From Hymenopellis radicata (taxonomy: Eukaryota; Basidiomycota; Agaricomycetes; Agaricales; Physalacriaceae): a stretch of DNA of 64,000 bases. The translations under genes were made by a program, and so were the position numbers. Each line of letters begins with the position of its first letter. Within the stretch, counting starts at the first letter, position 1. Positions 20,974 through 31,794 of this stretch are shown here, piece by piece. Under the pieces are notes generated by a model. The model was given only the letters and a program-made list of their open reading frames with translations. It did not search any database and had not been told where the DNA came from. The stretch is taken from contig JADNRX010000028.1 of assembly GCA_015501595.1 (NCBI GenBank), positions 229,711 through 293,710 of the forward strand, in the 5' to 3' direction.

Positions 20974-21311
20974 CTATACCGCGACCACGGTATGTTGCTC
21001 ATACGATTGCGATATGATGATCAAAGGAAGAAAGGTGATAATAGAAACCGAACAACACAGACCACTCTTCCTACGCAACATATACCGTAACCGACGAGCT
21101 TCGAGACATGTGGGTAAGTCCAAGTGAAGGTAAAGTAAAAGTCGCACACCGTACAACAACAATATAGAGTCCATGAATTAATACCTGCACTCCAAATTGC
21201 CCCTAATCGATCCGCTTTATCTCCAGACCTACCCCGGAACCCAACCAAGCCCCAAGATCCTCCACTGCCAGCATCACTGGGAACAGTCGTTGTCAAACAA
21301 TCACTCGTTGT
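20974..21311 (-). pseudogene. 3' half of EEP-jacalin gene split by transposon
   Basis: The minus strand from 21311 reads 'TTSDCLTTTVPSDAG', then 'WGLVGFRGRSGDKADRLGAIW', the second half of a jacalin-like lectin fold (the G-F-x-G-R-x-G-D-x-x-D-x-L-G motif). It ends at a probable donor near 21184. The first half of the same domain ends at 31786, more than 10 kb away, with 'NVVSAGKTTS'. The 9 bases coding for 'TTS' are present in both halves as the duplicated target site. Exons beyond 21184 are uncertain. In the intact gene this tail would follow an endonuclease/exonuclease/phosphatase domain. Confidence 0.75.
21303..21311. repeat. Left 9-bp target-site duplication (actcgttgt)
   Basis: actcgttgt lies immediately outside the left terminus of the 10.5-kb element and is repeated exactly at 31786-31794. 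On the coding (minus) strand it is acaacgagt, coding Thr-Thr-Ser at the join of the two gene halves. Confidence 0.85.
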
Positions 21312-21474
21312 ATGAGTGTCCAAGTGCATATTTATTACAGTGTAAAATAGTGTACTAATCGAGAGATTTTGGTGTTTTCCGGGGCCATTTTCCGAGAGGT
21401 GTTGATAGTCAAACACGAGTACTTGTTTTTCACCCACGCAGAATTCCGGAGCCAGCAAATGTGCGAGCGTTTTA

Positions 21475-21835
21475 CGCCCTCTTGTCGTCGAGAGTTTGAG
21501 CTGTCGTCAGAGTCGACTGCGAGAATTCGGGTTCAGATCGCGAGAGTCTTGAGAAGTAAGGGCGCGAAACGGCTGTCTCTGCTCACATCACGAGAATTCT
21601 TTCAAGGTCGAACACGCGAAGTTCCACTTTAGAAAGTTGTCAGGAGGACCTATTTCAACCACACAATTTACCACGAGACCTCTGTCTGAGTTCACGCGAA
21701 ATTTCAGCCTCATTCCACGCGAGATTTCCAACTCATTTCACACGAGATTTCCATTGGAATAACACACGAAGAAGAAGTATTATAGCACGAGAATTTTCTG
21801 TATGTACGCGCGAGATTTGACCACACGACAACAGC
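21475..21835. repeat. Left subterminal repeat array (CGCGAGATTT-like)
   Basis: About a dozen variants of a cRcgaga(a)tt(t) motif occur at roughly 24-bp spacing, for example acgcgagatttcc, acacgagatttcc, cacgagaattttc and cgcgagatttg. The mirror image (aaatctcgcg) forms the right array at 31.26-31.56 kb. Subterminal arrays of this kind usually serve as transposase-binding sites. Confidence 0.75.
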
Positions 21836-22268
21836 AACCGGCCTCCGACAAGACATGCTGCAGGCCATGGTAAGCCTATGGCGGGATATGCAGGAGCCCA
21901 TGGTAAGAGCACGGAGGACTGGGATACACCACACACACACCGTTGTTGTAGTTCCCACTGCCACCCTTGCCTCCAGTGCTGCCCTCGCCGCCGTTGTCAC
22001 CGTCCTCGTCAGCGTCGCCACCACCGTTGCCTAGCCAGCCAAATTTCTTCCAAGACCAAGTAATGCTGGAGTTCCAGGCTACGTTCAGCCTGACGTCGAA
22101 GATTTTCCGGCCTCTCTCTGTTTGGTGTCCGAGGCATCGTCGTCGTCGTCGTGTGGTGATGGCAGGAGGCAAAAGTAGGCACAGCCACTTCGGTCTGATG
22201 GCACGTCACGTTCACGCGACGCGTCCTTGTTTACCGTTTACCACCATCCTCAATCACTCCTCGTCATC

Positions 22269-24422
22269 ATGCCTGAAGGTGGCCAGAACATCGGATTCTA
22301 CGAGAAGACCAAGAAGACACTAAAGGAGCATCAAAGACAGGAGCATAGAACCATGCAAGGTAGGTCTATTATCCTTGATACGGTCATTTCCAATATCATC
22401 GGATGCAGGTCGACTTGTTCTCCATCCTTCCAACTTCTGTATCGGAACCAAGATAAAACCCTACTCCAATCTAACTGTCGATGACTCCCGCTTTGACAAG
22501 GCCCTCGAGCCTACCGATCCAAATTACCGACTCCGCTCTGAGGACGAGCTGAAACTAACGTGCAAGGAGGGCAAGCCCTTGTATTCTTGCTGCCGATACC
22601 TCATGAATACCCTTACCTCTGGCGACATTTGTATTGCTAAACGAGGGAAACTATTTGCTTTCGCTGTAGGACATGTGAGTACTCTCTTTTCAATCGCATT
22701 CAATATTAAACATAAGTCTCACAGCACTGCATTGTTATCCACTGGGGTCTTGAAGCTCAGCTAATTGAGCTCGACCTCCAGCTCTATCAAGAGATCACCT
22801 CTCGGTCTGTGATCGGCCCTAATCCCAATCGCACCAAGGCCAACAAGCTGCGACGCTTCATCATTCCACCGGAATATAAAGTGAAGGGCTCCAGCGATCT
22901 GACAGAGATCCGCTATATCACCATCCTTGCCGCCATTATTGGGGAAGGCAAGGCCTGGGTCGTTGCCGATTTCTCCAGACTCGCCCGGTTTCATATTATT
23001 AGTCGTAATGAGCCGTGGACTCAGGACGATCTTGCGCCGGACTCGAAGGTATGTTCCAATTCTCATCATTCGTTAACAAGTATTAACAACATCCTTACAG
23101 GAATGGGAAGCCCTATGGTCGCATTTTGGCGGTGGCTATGATTGGCAACTGGAAAGTAAACTCGCAGAGGAGGCTCTTCGCACGACATGGCGATCTATGA
23201 TTCTTGACAACGCCACCTATCATTCTCTTCCTATTCTCGACCTGATGACCACCGATGCGCAAGCTGAATTCTTCTTCAGTCCGTTCGGCAGACATCTAGC
23301 GAATGACGCACTGTTCTTTGTTGGAGTTCTGCCTTCGACGCCGGGGTATATGATTGTATCAGATGATCATGTATTCGACTCCTTTGTTCACGTTCTCCAG
23401 GAGTTCATGAACCGCTATCACACCCCTCAATTCCTTGTCGATTGCTGTGCGCGCACTACCGGTGACAACCCTTTCGCATTTCAGCTCTCTGTTGATCGCA
23501 AATACGATGCTTCGTACATGTTCGTCTTTCGCAAGGCGGTCGTCAAGGTACCTGCAGCCTTGTTTAAGAAGTTGGCACTTTCTGGCATGTTAGACCCTGG
23601 ACATACGATAGGTACAGTCTTGTCATCTTTTGAATTTTGTTGTCCATTCGCTCATTCATCAGCAGGAGATCTCTATACACCGCGAGATCATGTGCTCGAG
23701 CCTCTCCATAACCAAGGGGGGCTCTCTGTCCGGTTGCCTGTATATTATCGCCAGTCGCCAGCCGACTTCTATACAATCATTCGTGCCCGTGCTCCTGAGG
23801 GTTGGAATGATGGGGCTGAGGTCTGTATTCATCCATACTTTTCTACTTTGAACACTAATATCGTCCTATAGAAGGATTCATACGATCATCTTCTTGCAGG
23901 CTATACAACTACCATTGGGAACACCAATTTTCGAGAGACCAAGGTCAACAAACCCAATGTTAATGCCAATCTTGACGATGTTAAACTGCCCCGGGGGCGT
24001 CCAAGCGGGAGTGGAAAGGCATGTATTCATGACTCCGTTTGCCTCCTTATGCTGACACAACATAGAAGAAGAAAAATCGAGTATCTGCTGGCTCTGCTGG
24101 AGATGTCACGCTCTACGAGATTCAGAACCTCATCAAGAAGGAAGAGCGAATAACAGAAGAGAGCAACCGCCTTCGAATCAAATATAACGCCCTCTTTGGT
24201 TATGACCGTTATCTTAATGTTCCACAGACGGCACAGAGTGCTGAGCTTATGGAGCATGATAGCAGCTCTGGTCCTTCTTCTCCTCTGCGTCCAGTTCGTA
24301 CTTGCCGTTCTAAGCGCAAGTCTTATGTGGAGGACTCGATAGTGACGATGACAAGGAGAATGATATCCCCTCTAAACCTTTACAGAAGCGTTCCAGACGT
24401 ACATTGTGACTGTATCATGTAG
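22269..24422 (+). CDS. Unknown 616-aa transposon-encoded protein
   Basis: Seven exons join with all phases consistent: 22269-22359, 22409-22674, 22725-23048, 23101-23611, 23666-23820, 23872-24018 and 24066-24422. The sixth intron starts with GC (aaag|gcatgt). I do not recognise the fold. Visible features are a basic start ('YEKTKKTLKEHQRQEHRT'), an aromatic, mixed alpha/beta core ('ILAAIIGEGKAWVVADFSRL', 'RSMILDNATYHSLPILDLMT', 'PSTPGYMIVSDDHVFDSF', 'PQFLVDCCARTTGDNPFAF'), an AT-hook-like 'LPRGRPSGSGKKKK' and a coiled, charged C-terminal region with Ser-rich ends. Near 24340 a Lys/Asp-rich continuation ('DSDDDKENDIPSKP') lies one frame over, so the extreme C-terminus may carry a one-base lesion. 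The rest is open. It lies just inside the left subterminal array, where transposition genes often sit. It may be a novel transposase, an accessory DNA-binding protein or captured cargo; I cannot decide. Confidence 0.7.
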
Positions 24423-24503
24423 TACAATTGTAGAGTATGAGTTTCATGGCAGGAATTAATGTTTATTGTCTTCACCCTGCAGTGGCTTGTAGCTAGAGCT
24501 TGT

Positions 24504-25140
24504 CTTCCGACATCCGCCATCTGAGATTTCAAGATGTTCTAGGATTGTGCCCACATGGTCAGAGAGGGTAGCTAAGGGCTATATGAGTCTCCTAGTACCA
24601 TTTTTGTAGCAGGAAAAAATGTCTGAAGAGACGTGTACTGTACTATTACGGGCAAGTCTTCACAGATTTTCCTAATTTTTTTTTGATGGAAACCCGATTA
24701 GGATTTCCAGGCGATCGGCGGGGTTTGATAAGATCAAACGACCCCCCCGTTACGCGTTATGTGAAGACCTTACCATAATAGTACAGTAGTCAGATCTTAT
24801 CTTCCGACAGCAGCCGTCGGAGATTTCGAGATGTTCTAGGATTGTGCCCACACGGTCAGAGAGGGTAGCTAAGGGCTATATGAGTCTCCTGGTACAATTT
24901 TTTGTAGCGGGAAAAAATATCTGAAGAGACGTGTAGTCAGATCTTATCTTCCGACAGCGGCCGTCAGAGATTTTTACATGTTCTAGGATTGTGCCCACAC
25001 GGTCAGAGAGGGTAGCTAAGGGCTATATGAGTCTCCTGGTACAATTTTTGTAGCAGGAAAAAATATCTGAAGAGACGTGTAGTCAGATCTGATCTTCCGA
25101 CAGAGGCCGTCGGAGATTTCAACATGTTCGAGGATTCTGC
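24504..25140. repeat. Left inner array of 146-bp tandem repeats
   Basis: Units start at cttccgac at 24504, 24801, 24948 and 25094 (the last is partial). The unit is about 146 bp and contains 'ttctaggattgtgcccaca', 'agggctatatgagtctcct' and 'ctgaagagacgtgtagtcag'. The first unit is interrupted at TA 24636 by the 149-bp MITE. The same units recur in the opposite orientation at 30.15-30.77 kb, so the two arrays could form a foldback enclosing the BTB and minus-strand genes. Confidence 0.85.
24638..24786. mobile_element. 149-bp TA-flanked MITE (Tc1/mariner-like)
   Basis: The element begins ctgtactattacgg and ends with the near reverse complement (22 of 26 terminal positions match). It is flanked by TA on both sides. 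Removing it restores a continuous 146-bp repeat unit identical in layout to its neighbours, so the insertion site is certain. The interior has 'gatcggcggggtttgat' and a run of seven C's. No coding capacity. Confidence 0.9.
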
Positions 25141-25289
25141 TCTCTTATCAAAGGGGACAACTTAAACTCAAATCAGTAGCTTATTACATTCTTGATAGGT
25201 AGAGTTGAATCTAGCTATAATAGACAATCTACATGCAAGTAAGTAGAGTCTAACGATGTCCGTTGTCTGTATATATTGTTCGAGTACTA

Positions 25290-27247
25290 CAACTTCCTCA
25301 ACCATGGATTGGACTTGGTAGGAGCGGGACCACCAAGAGAGGAAGTATAGGTACTGGGTCCCGCCTGAGAGGTGTAGGCCATCGCCTCAGGAGTGGGAGC
25401 CGTGTCCTGAGAGGTGGAAGCGGCGGCAGATGTGTCGAAGTGTAGGATGAAGTCGTTGTCGTTGTCCTCGCCCTCCGAGTCCAGAAAGAACAGCGAGGAA
25501 GGTGCAGATGATGAGGAGTTCAATCGAGAAGAAGAGGCTGCAGTGAAGAAACGGTTACTAGATATGAAAGGAGATGTAGATGTGCTAGTACCGGCAGGCA
25601 TGTTCTCTGAAGACGACATGTTATCACCCTTGGAGTCGTTATCCTCCCAGGTATCGAGATCGATAACTGAAAGAATGACCAGTTAGTACTAAGGATTACT
25701 ACAGCACTGGATTGCGCGACGCCATACCCAGGAGTGCCGCAGTGCTTGTTTCTCTAACTGGCCATCGCACTCCTCATTGACCATCCCATCACACTCCTCA
25801 TTGACCATCTTTTTCTCAGTCGTTGAGCAGGCCGTTGGGAACTCGCTGTGAGCTTGACCCGTAAGTTCTCGCGTCCTACCTTTCCCGAAGCCATCACACA
25901 CCATGGGATGGAGCCCTGGACGATGTATATTCGGGCGACTTTACCCGCTGCTCCCATCTTGCGACGAGTGCAGAGACTCGACGTGATCTGGTACGTCGCC
26001 CTTGCTCTTTGTTTCCAAGGGGGTTCCAAAATTAAAATTTTGTACACTGGGCTGTTTAATTTTTTTCGGACCTCGGCGTAGACCCTACCTACCTCTATGA
26101 CATCATATATAGCACGTGATGCGCTATTTACCGTATTGGTACTAGCCCCTGATCTCACTTCCTTTCTCGCGCCATCATCCACGGCACTTTCCTTCTCTTG
26201 TGCCACAGCCGCCGCATGCCCAATGCAGCGGAATAAAGTCCATGCCTATGGAACTTCCAGGCTTCTGGTCAGTAAGATTGTTATTTGACACTGACCCATC
26301 CTATCTCACACCCACCTCGTGTGCACTTGGCTGCACTTTCTCTCTCTTCACCACATATCATTCACTGAGCATATCCGCCACTGTCTTCCGCTTCAATGTC
26401 CGAGAAGGTCTACCAGTGTTCGTGCTCGCTGTACTCGTGAGCGAAGGTGGAGCAAGGGTAGTTACTATATTTGGACTGCTGTCGTCTGCTACATGTTTTA
26501 GCATTGCCGCAGGCGCGGATATGTCTCATTATAGTATAGAATGACAGCTAATACTTCAATACACAATTTGGGACCCAAATATGACCCAAAATACTATAGT
26601 TTAAGAAAACTTTTTTGGGACCCCGAGGCTGACCCTACCTACCTGCCGGATGTATCGGACTTTAAGTCCGGAACCCCCTTGTTTGTTTCTTCCCTGAGAC
26701 TATCACTGACTACCTCTGACAGACCCTACGACGAAGATGGACTTGTTGCATTGCCCGCGTCCTTGTCCCATTTGGCTTTGTGCCGGTGGGAGCGATGCCT
26801 CTCTGAGTAGAGGACCACAAATTACCGCCTCCTTCGACACCACAGACATCGCCCACACCGGCATCTTCAGCAACGTCGCCGACTCACCGTTTCAGGCAGG
26901 ATGCGTCTTTAGATAGTGCCAAGACCTGGAGCACTGCGTCAACGACGGCGGGTGTCGAGTCTTCGTTCTTTGTGAGCGAAATCATGTTCGGGCTGCTGGA
27001 GGGTGTCAGCCATAAACCCTTGCCTGAACTTGAAGTCTTGTCCTGTTGGCAGGCGGCCTTGCACGGTGAGTCCACTCACATTCAATGTATTGTGGAATTG
27101 ATTGTTGAAAGGATTTTCGATTCCAAAGGTGTACACGTAGCTAACATGTCCGATGAGTGGGACTGACTTGGTGAGGTTGAGACGATCTTGTTGTTGAAGC
27201 ACGGCCTTCATTTTTCTGATATGGCCATTCTCGATCTTCTCGCTCAT
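25290..27247 (-). pseudogene. Minus-strand gene in transposon, interrupted
   Basis: A minus-strand coding trail starts at ATG 27247 ('MSEKIENGHIRKMKAVLQQQ') and passes through exons near 27190-27090 and 27030-26890 ('KNEDSTPAVVDAVLQVLALS'). It continues past 26690 ('SDSLREETK') directly into 'SKGDVPDHVESLHSSQDGS' at 26015-25950 once the 666-bp element at 26016-26681 is removed. It ends with a Ser/Thr/Asp-rich C-terminal exon (about 25660-25290) rich in 'SSSS' and 'DSEGEDNDND'. I recognise no domain, and exon joins are only partly resolved. Because the 666-bp element lies within coding sequence, this copy is probably inactive unless the element is spliced out. Confidence 0.4.
26016..26681. mobile_element. 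666-bp nonautonomous element, 8-bp TSD
   Basis: The termini are caagggggttcc and ggaacccccttg, a perfect 12-bp inverted repeat. The flanks carry an 8-bp direct duplication, tttgtttc (26008-26015 and 26682-26689). Just inside both ends is a direct rather than inverted repeat around 'gaccctacctacct'. An 8-bp duplication fits a hAT-type mover. No transposase is encoded. Confidence 0.8.
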
Positions 27248-27315
27248 GCTAGTGACAATATTTCATTTGAGCCGTAGATAGATGTGAGATTGCTACAGCT
27301 GTAACTAGTTAGATA

Positions 27316-28554
27316 CTGTACTATTACGGGCAAGTCTTCACAGATTTTCCTAATTTTTTTTTGATGGAAACCCGATTAGGATTTCCAGGCGATCGGCGGG
27401 GTTTGATAAGATCAAACGACCCCCCCGTTAGTCACGTCCATGAGTGTAGAGTGTTTAAGGGTGCACCCGGGTGCACTCGCATTCAGCACCCGAGTGTTGA
27501 GTGTTTGCCGGAGGCGGGTAGGGTGTTTGCATGGGTGTGCACTCGAGTGCGGGTGTCTGGCTTTGGGCCGCGAGTACCCGTCCTCAAACACCCGTGCAAA
27601 CACTCAACTATTGAGATACATATTTATTACAAATTTACAAATTTCTTTTAACTCCAACGGCCCATACGCCGTCCAAAACGACGCGCACAAGAATTTCTCG
27701 CGATCCGGCGCATCGGGCCGAGTGCCGATGCGACGCGTAAGCCTGTGATCGGGTTGGTTTCTCTTTACATCCTCACTACGACGACCACCACAGGCTCTCC
27801 TCCGACCCGCCAACGACCCGTCGCTCGACTTTGAGTCGGCGACGAAGACACCGGCGCCCGACTCTGAGTCGGCGTCGCTCACTAGGAGACGACTTTATGT
27901 CGTCTCCATGGATACACACGACCACGCCGACGCCAGGATAATACAGATGATGGACGCGGACATGGCGGCTGCAGGATGTGGCAACGACGAAGACGATAAT
28001 GGACATGGTCTTGGGCAGGATTTGAGGACTTGCTGACGTTGTGCTGCCTGCTGCATGCCGCGTCGCTAAGGTGCGCTTTTTTTCGCTCTCTTTGATTAAT
28101 GATTTATCTTTTATTGATACCACCGACTCACGGATGACTGCGTCGTCGTCGTCGTCCAATGACGACGACACAACCACTGCTACTCGCGCCGCCACTGCCA
28201 CCCACATCGCCGCCGCCGCCGCCGCTCTACCACTACCACCACCTCCCCACCACTGTCATGCACATGCGAGTGTCCCCGTGCCATTGCCCGGGGACGCTCG
28301 CTGAGCATGAATATCAGTTGGGTGTACTCGTGTACACCCGCCACTACACACGAGTGTTTAAACACTCGTGTATGCGGAACACCCGCGAATGGGTGTCACA
28401 CTCGAGTAGAGTACTCGGGTGTTGCCCGAGTGCGGGTGTCCAGCTTTGGGCCACGAGTGACCCGCCGTGCGAATGCGAGTGCACTCGGGTGGGCACTCGT
28501 GGACATGTCTACCCCCGTTACGCGTTATGTGAAGACCTTACCGTAATAGTACAG
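27316..28554. mobile_element. Second MITE copy, enlarged by a nested insertion
   Basis: It has the same terminal sequences (ctgtactattacgg...) and the same interior as the 149-bp MITE at 24638, again flanked by TA (27314-27315 and 28555-28556). It is split after the C-run by the 1.08-kb hAT-like element. The MITE halves are 27316-27430 and about 28512-28554. Confidence 0.85.
27431..28511. mobile_element. 1.08-kb hAT-like nonautonomous element
   Basis: It is inserted in the MITE with a duplicated flank (cccccgtta at 27422-27430 and 28512-28520; 7-9 bp depending on where the ends are drawn). The ends are gtcacgtccatgagtg and, inverted, gacatgtccacgagtg. About 150 bp at each end is crowded with cgagtg/cactcg and cgggtgt motifs. 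A 'tttgggcc(g/a)cgagt' block occurs near both ends in direct orientation. The interior has only low-complexity Asp/Ser- and Pro-rich frames and no transposase. The 8-bp-class duplication and ends point to the hAT superfamily. Confidence 0.75.
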
Positions 28555-28758
28555 TATGCTCATGTTCAATGTCGTCTGCTGTAATATGCAACCTGTACCG
28601 AACCGGAGCCATTCTTCCTGGTGCATTACAGTTACGGGTAGTATGTGAGAATCCATCTGTATAAACGCAGTAGGTGGCGATCCCTAGCGTGATGTCGATC
28701 AGGCGTCCAGTCAAGCTTTTGGATTAGATAATCAAAGTCCTTCTTTGACACGCCCATC

Positions 28759-30059
28759 ATGCTACTAGACCGAGACGCGTTTTTGAGATCTGGACCCTTC
28801 GTCTTTAAAGTTGCAGAGAAATTTGTCTATGACAATATCGGTGGCTTGTGGTTCGCTGTAAGTTAGGCATTGAATTGAATCATTATATGTGCTGATTCGA
28901 ATCTGATAGTGTATAAAATCAGACGACTGCATGCATGAACTAGTTTGCTACAAACTCATCCCAGACATTCTGAAGGACCGGTCTGCATACTTTCAAGATG
29001 CACTTGGCTTAGATGACGGAAGCTGCAGTCTCCTTGGAAAGGACAAGCTGCATCCGTACGTTCTACCACAAATGATCGTTAAGAAGGATTGGGAATGCAT
29101 ACTTCTTTTGTGGTTTGGAGAGTTGAGTGAACATTACATGGATTTTTTCAGAATTAACATGCTTGCAGACTCTCTCAAACAGAGGAAGAATCTGCTGATT
29201 TTTGGCGGTCTGTCCTTACGGTCAGCATCGTGCTGCAAGCAAGGATCAGCGAGGAGAGAGCCCGCAGGTATCTCGAAAGGTTCAACTCTACTGAGTTTCG
29301 ACCGGCCACTAAGCTCAGTGCTGCCTGCGAGTGCAACATCGCAAAGTGGATCTCCCCTTCTTTTACTGAGCTGCTTGGTAAACCTTGGTCTTATTGGACC
29401 ATTAACGACACCGCAACCCTTGGAGCACCACTGGTGTTACTTATAGCTAAGACCCGAGGTGCGATTCCTTCTCTGCATTAACGTGTGGCTGACATGCATA
29501 CTCGCTAGAAAACATTCAGAACATGAGATCCGGCCTAGCATTCAATACACCTGAGTTTGTCTCTGCCGGAAATGCTTGTACGAGGACTCCTGCGGACTGT
29601 GAAGCAGCTTGGCCTGCTCAATGGTGGAGCAGTATCGCCTGCTTACTTTTGCATCCAGACACTCCATTAACCATTCACGCTCTGTTCGCCAAGGCCCAAG
29701 CTTAAGGCTCCTGAAACCACATTCAGTGGTGTTTGCGAGAGATGTGCTAGTGCTACGGTGCGTAGTACTATAGCTAAGCATGCGGATTTGGAGGAAGTCG
29801 AGACTCGAGAGGAAGGAAATGGAACAAGGAGAACGTGATCTCAAGCAATACCTCCGTGGTATTTCTTTCGATAAGTAAGATTGCATGTTGTAATGCATGT
29901 TTTACGCTGACACCCATGTTTAGAGCAGATCCTCGTGACTACATGATATGTGTGGGGATTCATACAGAGTCGAATGTTGGGACTAACGACGAGGAAAGTA
30001 ATTCAGAGGAAGAAACTTCGGCAGAAGAAGAAGGTAACGGTGGCGGCGGCAGTGCATAG
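28759..30059 (+). CDS. BTB/POZ-like protein carried by the transposon
   Basis: Exons 28759-28857, 28910-29126, 29183-29458 and 29509 onward join in phase. The order is typical of basidiomycete BTB proteins: a first strand block ('MLLDRDAFLRSGPFVFKVAE'), 'YKLIPDILKDRSAYFQDALG' (the helix of the BTB core where the peptide inspects S..F), 'VLPQMIVKKDWECILLLWF', then 'ADFWRSVLTVSIVLQARIS', the C-terminal 'CNIAKWISPSFTELLG', and finally a 'GVCERC' Cys pair with an acidic tail ending at 30059. A stop at 29702-29704 ('FAKAQA' stop) is probably a one-base shift, because the expected 'PETTFSGVCERCASAT' continues one frame over. BTB domains mediate dimerisation or cullin-3 binding. Its role on a transposon is unknown; it may simply be a captured gene. 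Confidence 0.6.
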
Positions 30060-30149
30060 CCAGTTGGAAGTTATTATCTCTTAAAAATATATCTTGATCC
30101 TCTTAAGGCTTGCTTGATCTGCCATAACAAAAAGCAGTACTAAGGATAA

Positions 30150-30770
30150 GATCTGACTACACATCTTTCCAGACCTAGTACAGAACTGGAGGACTCATAT
30201 GAACCTTGACTGTCCTGTCTAACAGTGAGGATACACAATCCTAGAACATGTCAAAATCTCCGACGGCCAGTGGGCCACTGTCAAAAGATAACATCTGACT
30301 ACACGTCTCTTCAGACATTTATTCCTGCTACAAAAATGGTATCAGGAGACTCATATAGCCCTTAGCTACCCTCTCTGACCATGTGGGCACAATCCTAGAA
30401 CATGTCGAAATCTCCGACGGCCTCTGTCGGAAGATAAGATCTGACTACACGTCTCTTCAGATATTTTTTCCTGCTACAAAAATTGTACCAGGAGACTCAT
30501 ATAGCCCTTAGCTACCCTCTCCGACCATGTGGGCACAATCCTAGAACATGTCAAAATCTCTGACGGCCGCTGTCGGAAGATAGGATCTGACTACACGTCT
30601 CTTCAGACATTTATTCCTGCTACAAAAATGGTACCAGGAGATTCATATAGCCCTTAGCTACCCTCTCAGACCGTGTGGGCACAATCCTAGAACATCTCAC
30701 AATCTCCGACGGCCGCTGTCGGAAGATAACATCTGACTACATGTCTCTTCAGACATTAATTACCACTGAA
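30150..30770. repeat. Right inner array of 146-bp tandem repeats (inverted)
   Basis: This is the reverse complement of the array at 24504-25140. Unit boundaries at gtcggaag fall at 30426, 30572 and 30718, giving a constant 146-bp period, with a more diverged unit at the left edge (about 30150-30290). Confidence 0.85.
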
Positions 30771-30871
30771 GAAAGAATGCTGAGATACTTGTAGGACATC
30801 TACTAACCTTCTGTGCTGTGGAGCCACTCTTCCTGGAACTTGATAAATAATACTCTATCAGCACAACTTAG

Positions 30872-31138
30872 CTAAGTGGCGCTGGCTGGCAGGGCGGTCA
30901 CGTGATGGGAGAGTTGTGGCAGTGTGGGAGCTTTGACAATTTTCCTCCTGACGACCAGCATGGCCACCGCCGCTATATCCTCCCCTTGAATGTACAGTTG
31001 CTTGAGGCGTCTGGAGATCGCATGGCTTGGGAGTAGGAGGATGTAGGACTCTCCTCCCTCTGTGGGCACATCTGTGGGCTTAGAGCGGTGCGCTAGGGGC
31101 TCTGTACGTGTTTGCTTTTGTTCCAGTAGCTGAGCCAT
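30872..31138 (-). CDS. 88-aa hypothetical protein near right end
   Basis: ATG is at 31138 and the stop at 30872, on the minus strand, between the right inner array and the right subterminal array. The start 'MAQLLEQKQTRTEP' is hydrophilic, followed by 'ISRRLKQLYIQGEDIAAVAM' and a basic stretch. It may be a short transposon protein or the first exon of a longer gene. No family recognised. Confidence 0.3.
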   Translation of the reverse strand: MAQLLEQKQTRTEPLAHRSKPTDVPTEGGESYILLLPSHAISRRLKQLYIQGEDIAAVAMLVVRRKIVKAPTLPQLSHHVTALPASAT

Positions 31139-31257
31139 ACTGATTTACTATTCCTACACCATCCTTTGAACTCACTTCCTTGTCCAACCGCAGTGTACTG
31201 TTGAGCTGTCGCCCGTGTCTGTGGTTAGTATAGGTATAGGATGTCTGCAGTACAGGA

Positions 31258-31565
31258 TCTCGTGAGTTCTACTAAGAAAATCTCGCGCTTTATCTGTTAG
31301 AAAATCTCGCGCTTTATTTGCAAGAAAATCTCGCGCTTTCTCTGTAAGAAAATCTCGTGATTATTCCTTGAAAAAATCTCGTGCTTTGTTGGCACAACGA
31401 TCTCGTGCAACAAATGCTACAAGATCGCGCGGTAGTGATCGAGAAAGACTCGTGATTTTGCTTTCCAAAACTCTCGCTGTTTGAGTGCCAGGAATCTTCG
31501 CGGTCTCTACTACCTGATCTTCGTCTGTTAATCTCGTTGTTGTTGGAGGCTGAAACTTCGCTCAA
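31258..31565. repeat. Right subterminal repeat array (AAATCTCGCG)
   Basis: Clean 24-bp periodicity at the start: aaaatctcgcgctttatctg, then aaaatctcgcgctttatttg, aaaatctcgcgctttctctg, then aaaatctcgtg versions and increasingly degenerate copies to about 31565. It is inverted relative to the left array at 21.48-21.83 kb. Confidence 0.85.
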
Positions 31566-31785
31566 TGACCATGGCATCCCGGAAGACTCGTCCGAAAAAC
31601 TGCTGAAAGATTGTGGATTCTATTAGCCTCTTCGGTACTCGTAGCGGGACTCGGGAGCCGCCTCAGTCTTCCTCGCTGTATCAATGGGCAACTTCTCGTG
31701 TATCATTTTCCATCGATATCTCTCGATTTACATGAAATGACGAGGATTCTCGGGAATCGTAATAAATGTGCACTCCGCTGATGAT

Positions 31786-31794
31786 ACTCGTTGT
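31786..31794. repeat. Right 9-bp target-site duplication (actcgttgt)
   Basis: Identical to 21303-21311, and adjacent to the right terminus of the 10.5-kb element. Confidence 0.85.

Follow-up and report, generated by a model that had tools for sequence, protein, structure and literature searches.

The window analysed here, a 64,000-nucleotide stretch of the 75.5-Mb assembly of the agaric Hymenopellis radicata (C607:229711-293710), contains a jacalin-domain gene split by a 10,474-bp insert (21312-31785), which is bounded by two copies of ACTCGTTGT (21303..21311 and 31786..31794) and carries one intact gene close to its left end, gene A (22269..24422, plus strand). We read the insert, with a probability of roughly 0.7, as a non-autonomous member of a mushroom IS3EU/GingerRoot-like transposon lineage in which a divergent DNA glycosylase gene of the Fpg/Nei family travels.

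The insertion and its ends

The insertion and its target duplication are confirmed by two uninterrupted relatives of the site (C862:19479-20468 and C584:60177-61166), which match the joined flanks at 92% over 973/974 bases and hold ACTCGTTGT as a single copy at the junction. The 9-bp direct repeat and 10,474-bp gap described by the first-pass annotation are thus real, and empty sites, which it had suggested looking for in related strains, exist within the assembly. When the flanks are rejoined with one copy of the duplication, a minus-strand frame stays open across the junction, and a Pfam scan of the rejoined host gene finds the jacalin domain PF01419 at E 1.3e-9. The same annotation had named the host an EEP-jacalin gene; its jacalin half holds, while the EEP half is unconfirmed, the family having been absent from the two host-gene pieces scanned.

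The terminal inverted repeats, identified by end matching, are ATGAGTGTCCAAGTGCATATTTATTAC on the plus strand (21312..21338) and its counterpart on the minus strand (31759..31785). They are imperfect, as had been noted, with 20 of 28 positions identical between left and right. Because the outermost T at 21311 and A at 31786 may be part of the element, the direct repeat of at most 9 bp corresponds to a duplication of 7 to 9 bp; with a start of TAT and an end of ATA, as in its relatives, the duplication becomes CTCGTTG, 7 bp, and the termini read TATGAG..TGATA. Terminal repeats extending past the ~27-bp core were unsupported, the local score of 26 equalling the best of 200 random comparisons.

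Inside the ends lie subterminal repeats built on SCGAGAWTT, a motif chosen after reading the sequence: three plus-strand copies on the left (21515..21820) and three minus-strand copies in 24-bp units on the right (31273..31400), with none in the 9.0-kb element interior or in the remaining 53.5 kb of the window. An element on contig C1073 shows the same design with CGAGAGA, which occurs six times on the plus strand and never on the minus strand at its left end, and nine times on the minus strand and never on the plus strand at its right.

The end core AGTGCAYATTTATTAC has three exact places in the assembly (control 0), two of them being the ends of the window element and the third lying on C741; at two mismatches this probe loses specificity, with 49 places against 42 for the control. 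A longer end, GTGTCCAARTGCAYWTTTATTMC, finds 26 genome places at up to three mismatches against one for a reversed-pattern control. By these matches the window ends are part of a genome-wide end family and the element is no orphan. Ends of the GTGTCCAARTGCAYWTTTATTMC type flank elements of ~0.7 kb on both sides on C940, C1125 and C357. The place on C741 is a further left end of the window type, at 89% identity; no opposite end was found in the 39 kb read there, and no gene A match is listed on that contig.

A scan for target duplications covered 13 sequences. The elements on C357 and C1125 both have the termini TATCGG..CCGATA, with exact 6-bp duplications of CTCCGA and GTGTGC, respectively, and the C1073 element, with termini TATCAG..CCAGGATA, is flanked by an exact 6-bp ATGCAA (the maximum repeat there being TAATGCAA, 8). 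The C940 element has the same TATCGG..CCGATA termini, with flanks TTTGAG and TTTCAG that are alike at 5 of 6 bases; of the four relatives that were read at both ends, three therefore have an exact 6-bp duplication. Scan matches in L045, L046 and L048 were discarded, being located at poor ends, and no duplication of at least 6 bp was found in L039, L041, L042, L052, L009 or L013.

Gene A and its relatives

Gene A has seven exons and encodes 616 aa, 100% identical to H. radicata BDZ89DRAFT_982264. Homology, profile and fold searches predict a very divergent relative of the Fpg/Nei (MutM) DNA glycosylases, whose activity we infer. In each of four fold-search lists, made with two structure models, all 50 of the 50 listed matches are Fpg/Nei chains, the agreement lying in the Fpg/Nei N-terminal fold; no other fold appears among the matches listed, which leaves room for others. 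A profile search of the PDB gave 21 weak matches, every one to Fpg/MutM/NEIL1, and hhalign, in which the H2TH region aligned, scored gene A against Fpg/Nei at 26.5, a value that neither 30 column shuffles (18.75 at best) nor reversal (12.4) reached. Among seven gene A sequences, five start with MPE (one of the others starts elsewhere and one is partial), four with MPExPE, and all seven have the hairpin GK, so that the catalytic Pro2-Glu3 and hairpin-lysine features of Fpg/Nei appear, at the sequence level, to be present in the family. Gene A also marks a protein family that lacks a Pfam model and was encountered here in six Agaricomycete species; homologues occur in Moniliophthora roreri, Dendrothele bispora, Lyophyllum shimeji, Coprinellus aureogranulatus and Peniophora.

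Several observations weigh against this assignment. The best PDB match has an E value of 0.39 and none falls below 0.001, the hhalign probability is 2.9%, six gene A family members gave no Pfam match, the models are weak (mean pLDDT 53 and 58), and TM-scores to Fpg are 0.19-0.29 by target length. The window protein begins MPEGGQ, not MPExPE; by eye, Arg or Lys stands at the position of Fpg Asn169, leaving the phosphate-binding H2TH asparagine absent, and the zinc-finger cysteine pattern was not seen in what is a low-confidence region of both models. We nonetheless consider it improbable that gene A lies outside Fpg/Nei and that the fold match reflects a common arrangement, since the models of two separate proteins converge on one family with the PDB profile search and with hhalign, and the N-terminal Pro and the H2TH helix fall into register.

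The missing asparagine and cysteines, together with GRPRK/GRKPK-like basic motifs at the C-terminus, would also suit a protein derived from Fpg/Nei that binds DNA without catalysis and serves the transposon by binding its ends or in an architectural role. This is possible, if doubtful: the MPE and MPExPE starts and the hairpin GK are catalytic features of Fpg/Nei and are kept at the frequencies given above, and Fpg/Nei enzymes without zinc exist.

Gene A matches occur on ten contigs, those on C1007 (27%) and C248 (26%) being weak. The 28-mer end TATCAGTTTCAAAATGCACATTAAATAA (TATCAG...) has exactly five genome places at up to three mismatches (control 0), and all five lie 1.2-1.5 kb upstream of a same-strand gene A match, on C617, C915, C1073, C997 and C1026; in the window, the left end is 0.96 kb upstream. 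Including the window, an IS3EU-like end stands upstream of gene A on the same strand at six of ten loci, and the lack of such an end at the other four (C600, C671, C1007 and C248) counts against a transposon-borne gene. The copies on C1073 (L065) and C915 (L066) are 99.4% identical over 5.2 kb beginning exactly at TATCAGTTTCAAAATGCACATTAAATAA and have different left flanks, which argues for recent movement. The near-identity of this pair also means that the gene A loci are not independent and represent fewer separate events, which again weakens the case. The two gene A copies differ by three synonymous changes and one non-synonymous, numbers too small to test for selection. Elsewhere in the assembly, L045 (C1001) and L046 (C446) share 98.2% identity along 9.97 kb, so that some regions seem to be included as two haplotypes and copy counts may be inflated.

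The C1073 relative of gene A is intact, with seven exons and 593 aa. In the same transposon a minus-strand, sugar-transporter-like part was seen by eye at ~4.5-5.3 kb of the stretch joined from L065 and L067, perhaps a captured fragment. That several gene A relatives lie inside related transposons hints at use of the enzyme by the transposon. The four loci without an end would equally fit a host gene captured by chance and carried as neutral cargo, as would the habit of fungal transposons of picking up host fragments, of which the sugar-transporter-like stretch may be an example. We regard this as unlikely, because unused cargo should decay, whereas gene A is intact, with seven exons, in two divergent elements at 38% identity over the whole protein, and it keeps the same position and orientation behind the left end at six loci.

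Integrase-type relatives, gene C and the element interior

The element on C1073, 8.13 kb long, contains an integrase-core gene that is truncated, matching PF24764 over profile positions 117-189 at E 7.3e-10. PF24764 has 76 matches genome-wide and lies within 8 kb of five of the ten gene A loci (C600, C617, C915, C1073 and C1007), a proximity with a rough binomial chance of 3e-8 if ~50 integrase loci and independence are assumed. The window copy itself is probably non-autonomous, because no integrase was found within it. The element has 25 open frames that reach 100 aa; scans of 19 of these and of gene A gave no transposase family, MULE included, and no TET/JBP family. Genome-wide, PF24764 was the sole transposase family searched. 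The earlier statements that no transposase is recognisable and that the element may be non-autonomous are in line with this.

According to Kojima 2023 (PMC10045372), TA..TA termini are constant among IS3EU elements, and their target duplications are usually of 6 bp. The termini of the elements on C357, C1125, C940 and C1073 are of this TA..TA type, as are those of the window copy if its duplication is 7 bp. The IS3EU/GingerRoot-like label nevertheless has points against it. The window duplication is 7-9 bp, not the usual 6; the window copy yielded no integrase; only a fragment of one is present on C1073, and those on C600 and C617 are known as match positions; and the label was set from ends, duplications and integrase-core matches.

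The first-pass annotation took the 9-bp repeat as a hint of Mutator. Mutator-like elements make target duplications of 8-11 bp, and the window duplication, at 7-9 bp, reaches into that range. Given related elements with TA..TA ends and 6-bp duplications (C357, C1125 and C1073), the repeat is a weak argument, and it is very improbable that the element is Mutator-like, or belongs to another superfamily with 9-bp duplications, and that the integrases near other copies are coincidental. The family ends, the relatives' duplication length and the integrase matches near five of ten gene A loci all differ from that expectation, and neither gene A nor any scanned frame gave a MULE match, a MULE search elsewhere in the genome not having been made. 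The suggestion of an undescribed family likewise proves too strong for the transposon itself, whose relatives look IS3EU/GingerRoot-like.

Beyond gene A, the gene content of the window element is one decayed gene, gene C, plus nested smaller elements. The "multiple genes" reported earlier amount to these two genes, the rest being the nested elements, and the description as a giant is partly illusory, three smaller elements being nested within. Gene C (28759..29900, plus strand, its end approximate) has no Pfam family, and its read-through gave no transposase or TET/JBP match either. Elsewhere it occurs at two places alone, C600 (51%, E 1.2e-22) and C617 (28%, E 4.6e-4); both carry gene A and integrase matches, with gene C opposite to the integrase. 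Gene C was also considered as an alpha-kinase, the partner gene of rust IS3EU elements, with no match. In C600:1690-9742, known from match positions alone, gene A, the integrase and gene C are arranged otherwise than in the C617 element (at about 43-55.1 kb), and no end was recognised; the stretch could be two adjacent copies.

Two arrays of a 146-bp repeat, on the plus strand at 24455..25140 and inverted on the minus strand at 30142..30774, lie in the interior. Further copies of this repeat, some of them in tandem, are found on contigs that include C1074, C583 and C136. Comparison of ends reveals a nested 149-bp element (24636..24788) and a nested 1239-bp element (27314..28556) that share the inverted ends CTGTACTATTACGGGCAAGTCTTCACA and TA flanks, which we take to resemble the Tc1/mariner type. 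A third nested element, of 666 bp (26016-26681, or 26008..26689 with its flanks), has ends CAAGGGGGTTCC and an 8-bp flanking repeat TTTGTTTC, and is hAT-like by duplication length. The block from 24.45 to 30.78 kb may itself be nested, or may be an internal block inverted between the 146-bp repeats. Recurrence of these repeats on other contigs would suit a single nested transposon, but the enclosed gene C is found close to gene A on C600 as well and, by a weak match, on C617, so we keep both possibilities.

Proposed role and comparison with known systems

The window copy was probably mobilised in trans by an integrase-type transposase from a related copy. If the glycosylase assignment is correct, the product of gene A would excise modified or oxidised bases, nicking the strand. 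Base-excision repair would then restore plain bases on the transposon DNA, and the element would thereby escape silencing by cytosine methylation, a parallel to the TET/JBP genes that some other transposons of fungi carry. By analogy, a base-excision glycosylase could act one step later in the TET/JBP pathway, or without such a step, in the manner of the plant DME/ROS1 enzymes. A bolder reading, possible but less likely than not, is that the lineage encodes an Fpg/Nei enzyme that either strips transposon DNA of cytosines that are methylated or oxidised, or of further marks, as a second, non-TET escape from silencing, or nicks DNA for transposition or its repair. Transposon-borne TET/JBP enzymes have been argued to counter methylation silencing (Kojima 2025, PMC12730594). 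Among the papers listed by a full-text literature search, with preprints and most subscription papers outside its reach, none appeared to describe an Fpg/Nei gene on a transposon. If true, a transposon lineage bearing a glycosylase would extend the anti-silencing tools of transposons to a second kind, or give base-excision repair a role in transposition that is new.

Gene A resembles Fpg/Nei proteins (MutM, NEIL) in its predicted N-terminal fold, the MPExPE start of most members, the hairpin lysine and the H2TH region, and differs in that its proteins are of ~550-600 aa with a basic C-terminal tail, are transposon-borne, and lack, by eye, the H2TH asparagine and zinc finger. Relatives of the window element resemble IS3EU/GingerRoot in their TA..TA termini and, less uniformly, in 6-bp duplications (exact in three of four) and in a gene of integrase type that some of them carry or adjoin; the window copy departs from IS3EU/GingerRoot in its 7-9 bp repeat, in having no integrase found and in its Fpg/Nei-like gene, which the accessible text on GingerRoot/IS3EU does not mention (PMC10045372). 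Rust IS3EU elements that bear TET have the termini TAYGG..CCRTA and an alpha-kinase opposite to the transposase (Kojima 2025, PMC12730594). In contrast to the rust TET/JBP-bearing elements, the passenger here is Fpg/Nei-like, gene C has no alpha-kinase match and the host is an agaric; as in those elements, several genes travel together, among them a passenger that would modify DNA, and a partner gene runs opposite to the transposase, comparable with gene C and the integrase on C600 and C617.

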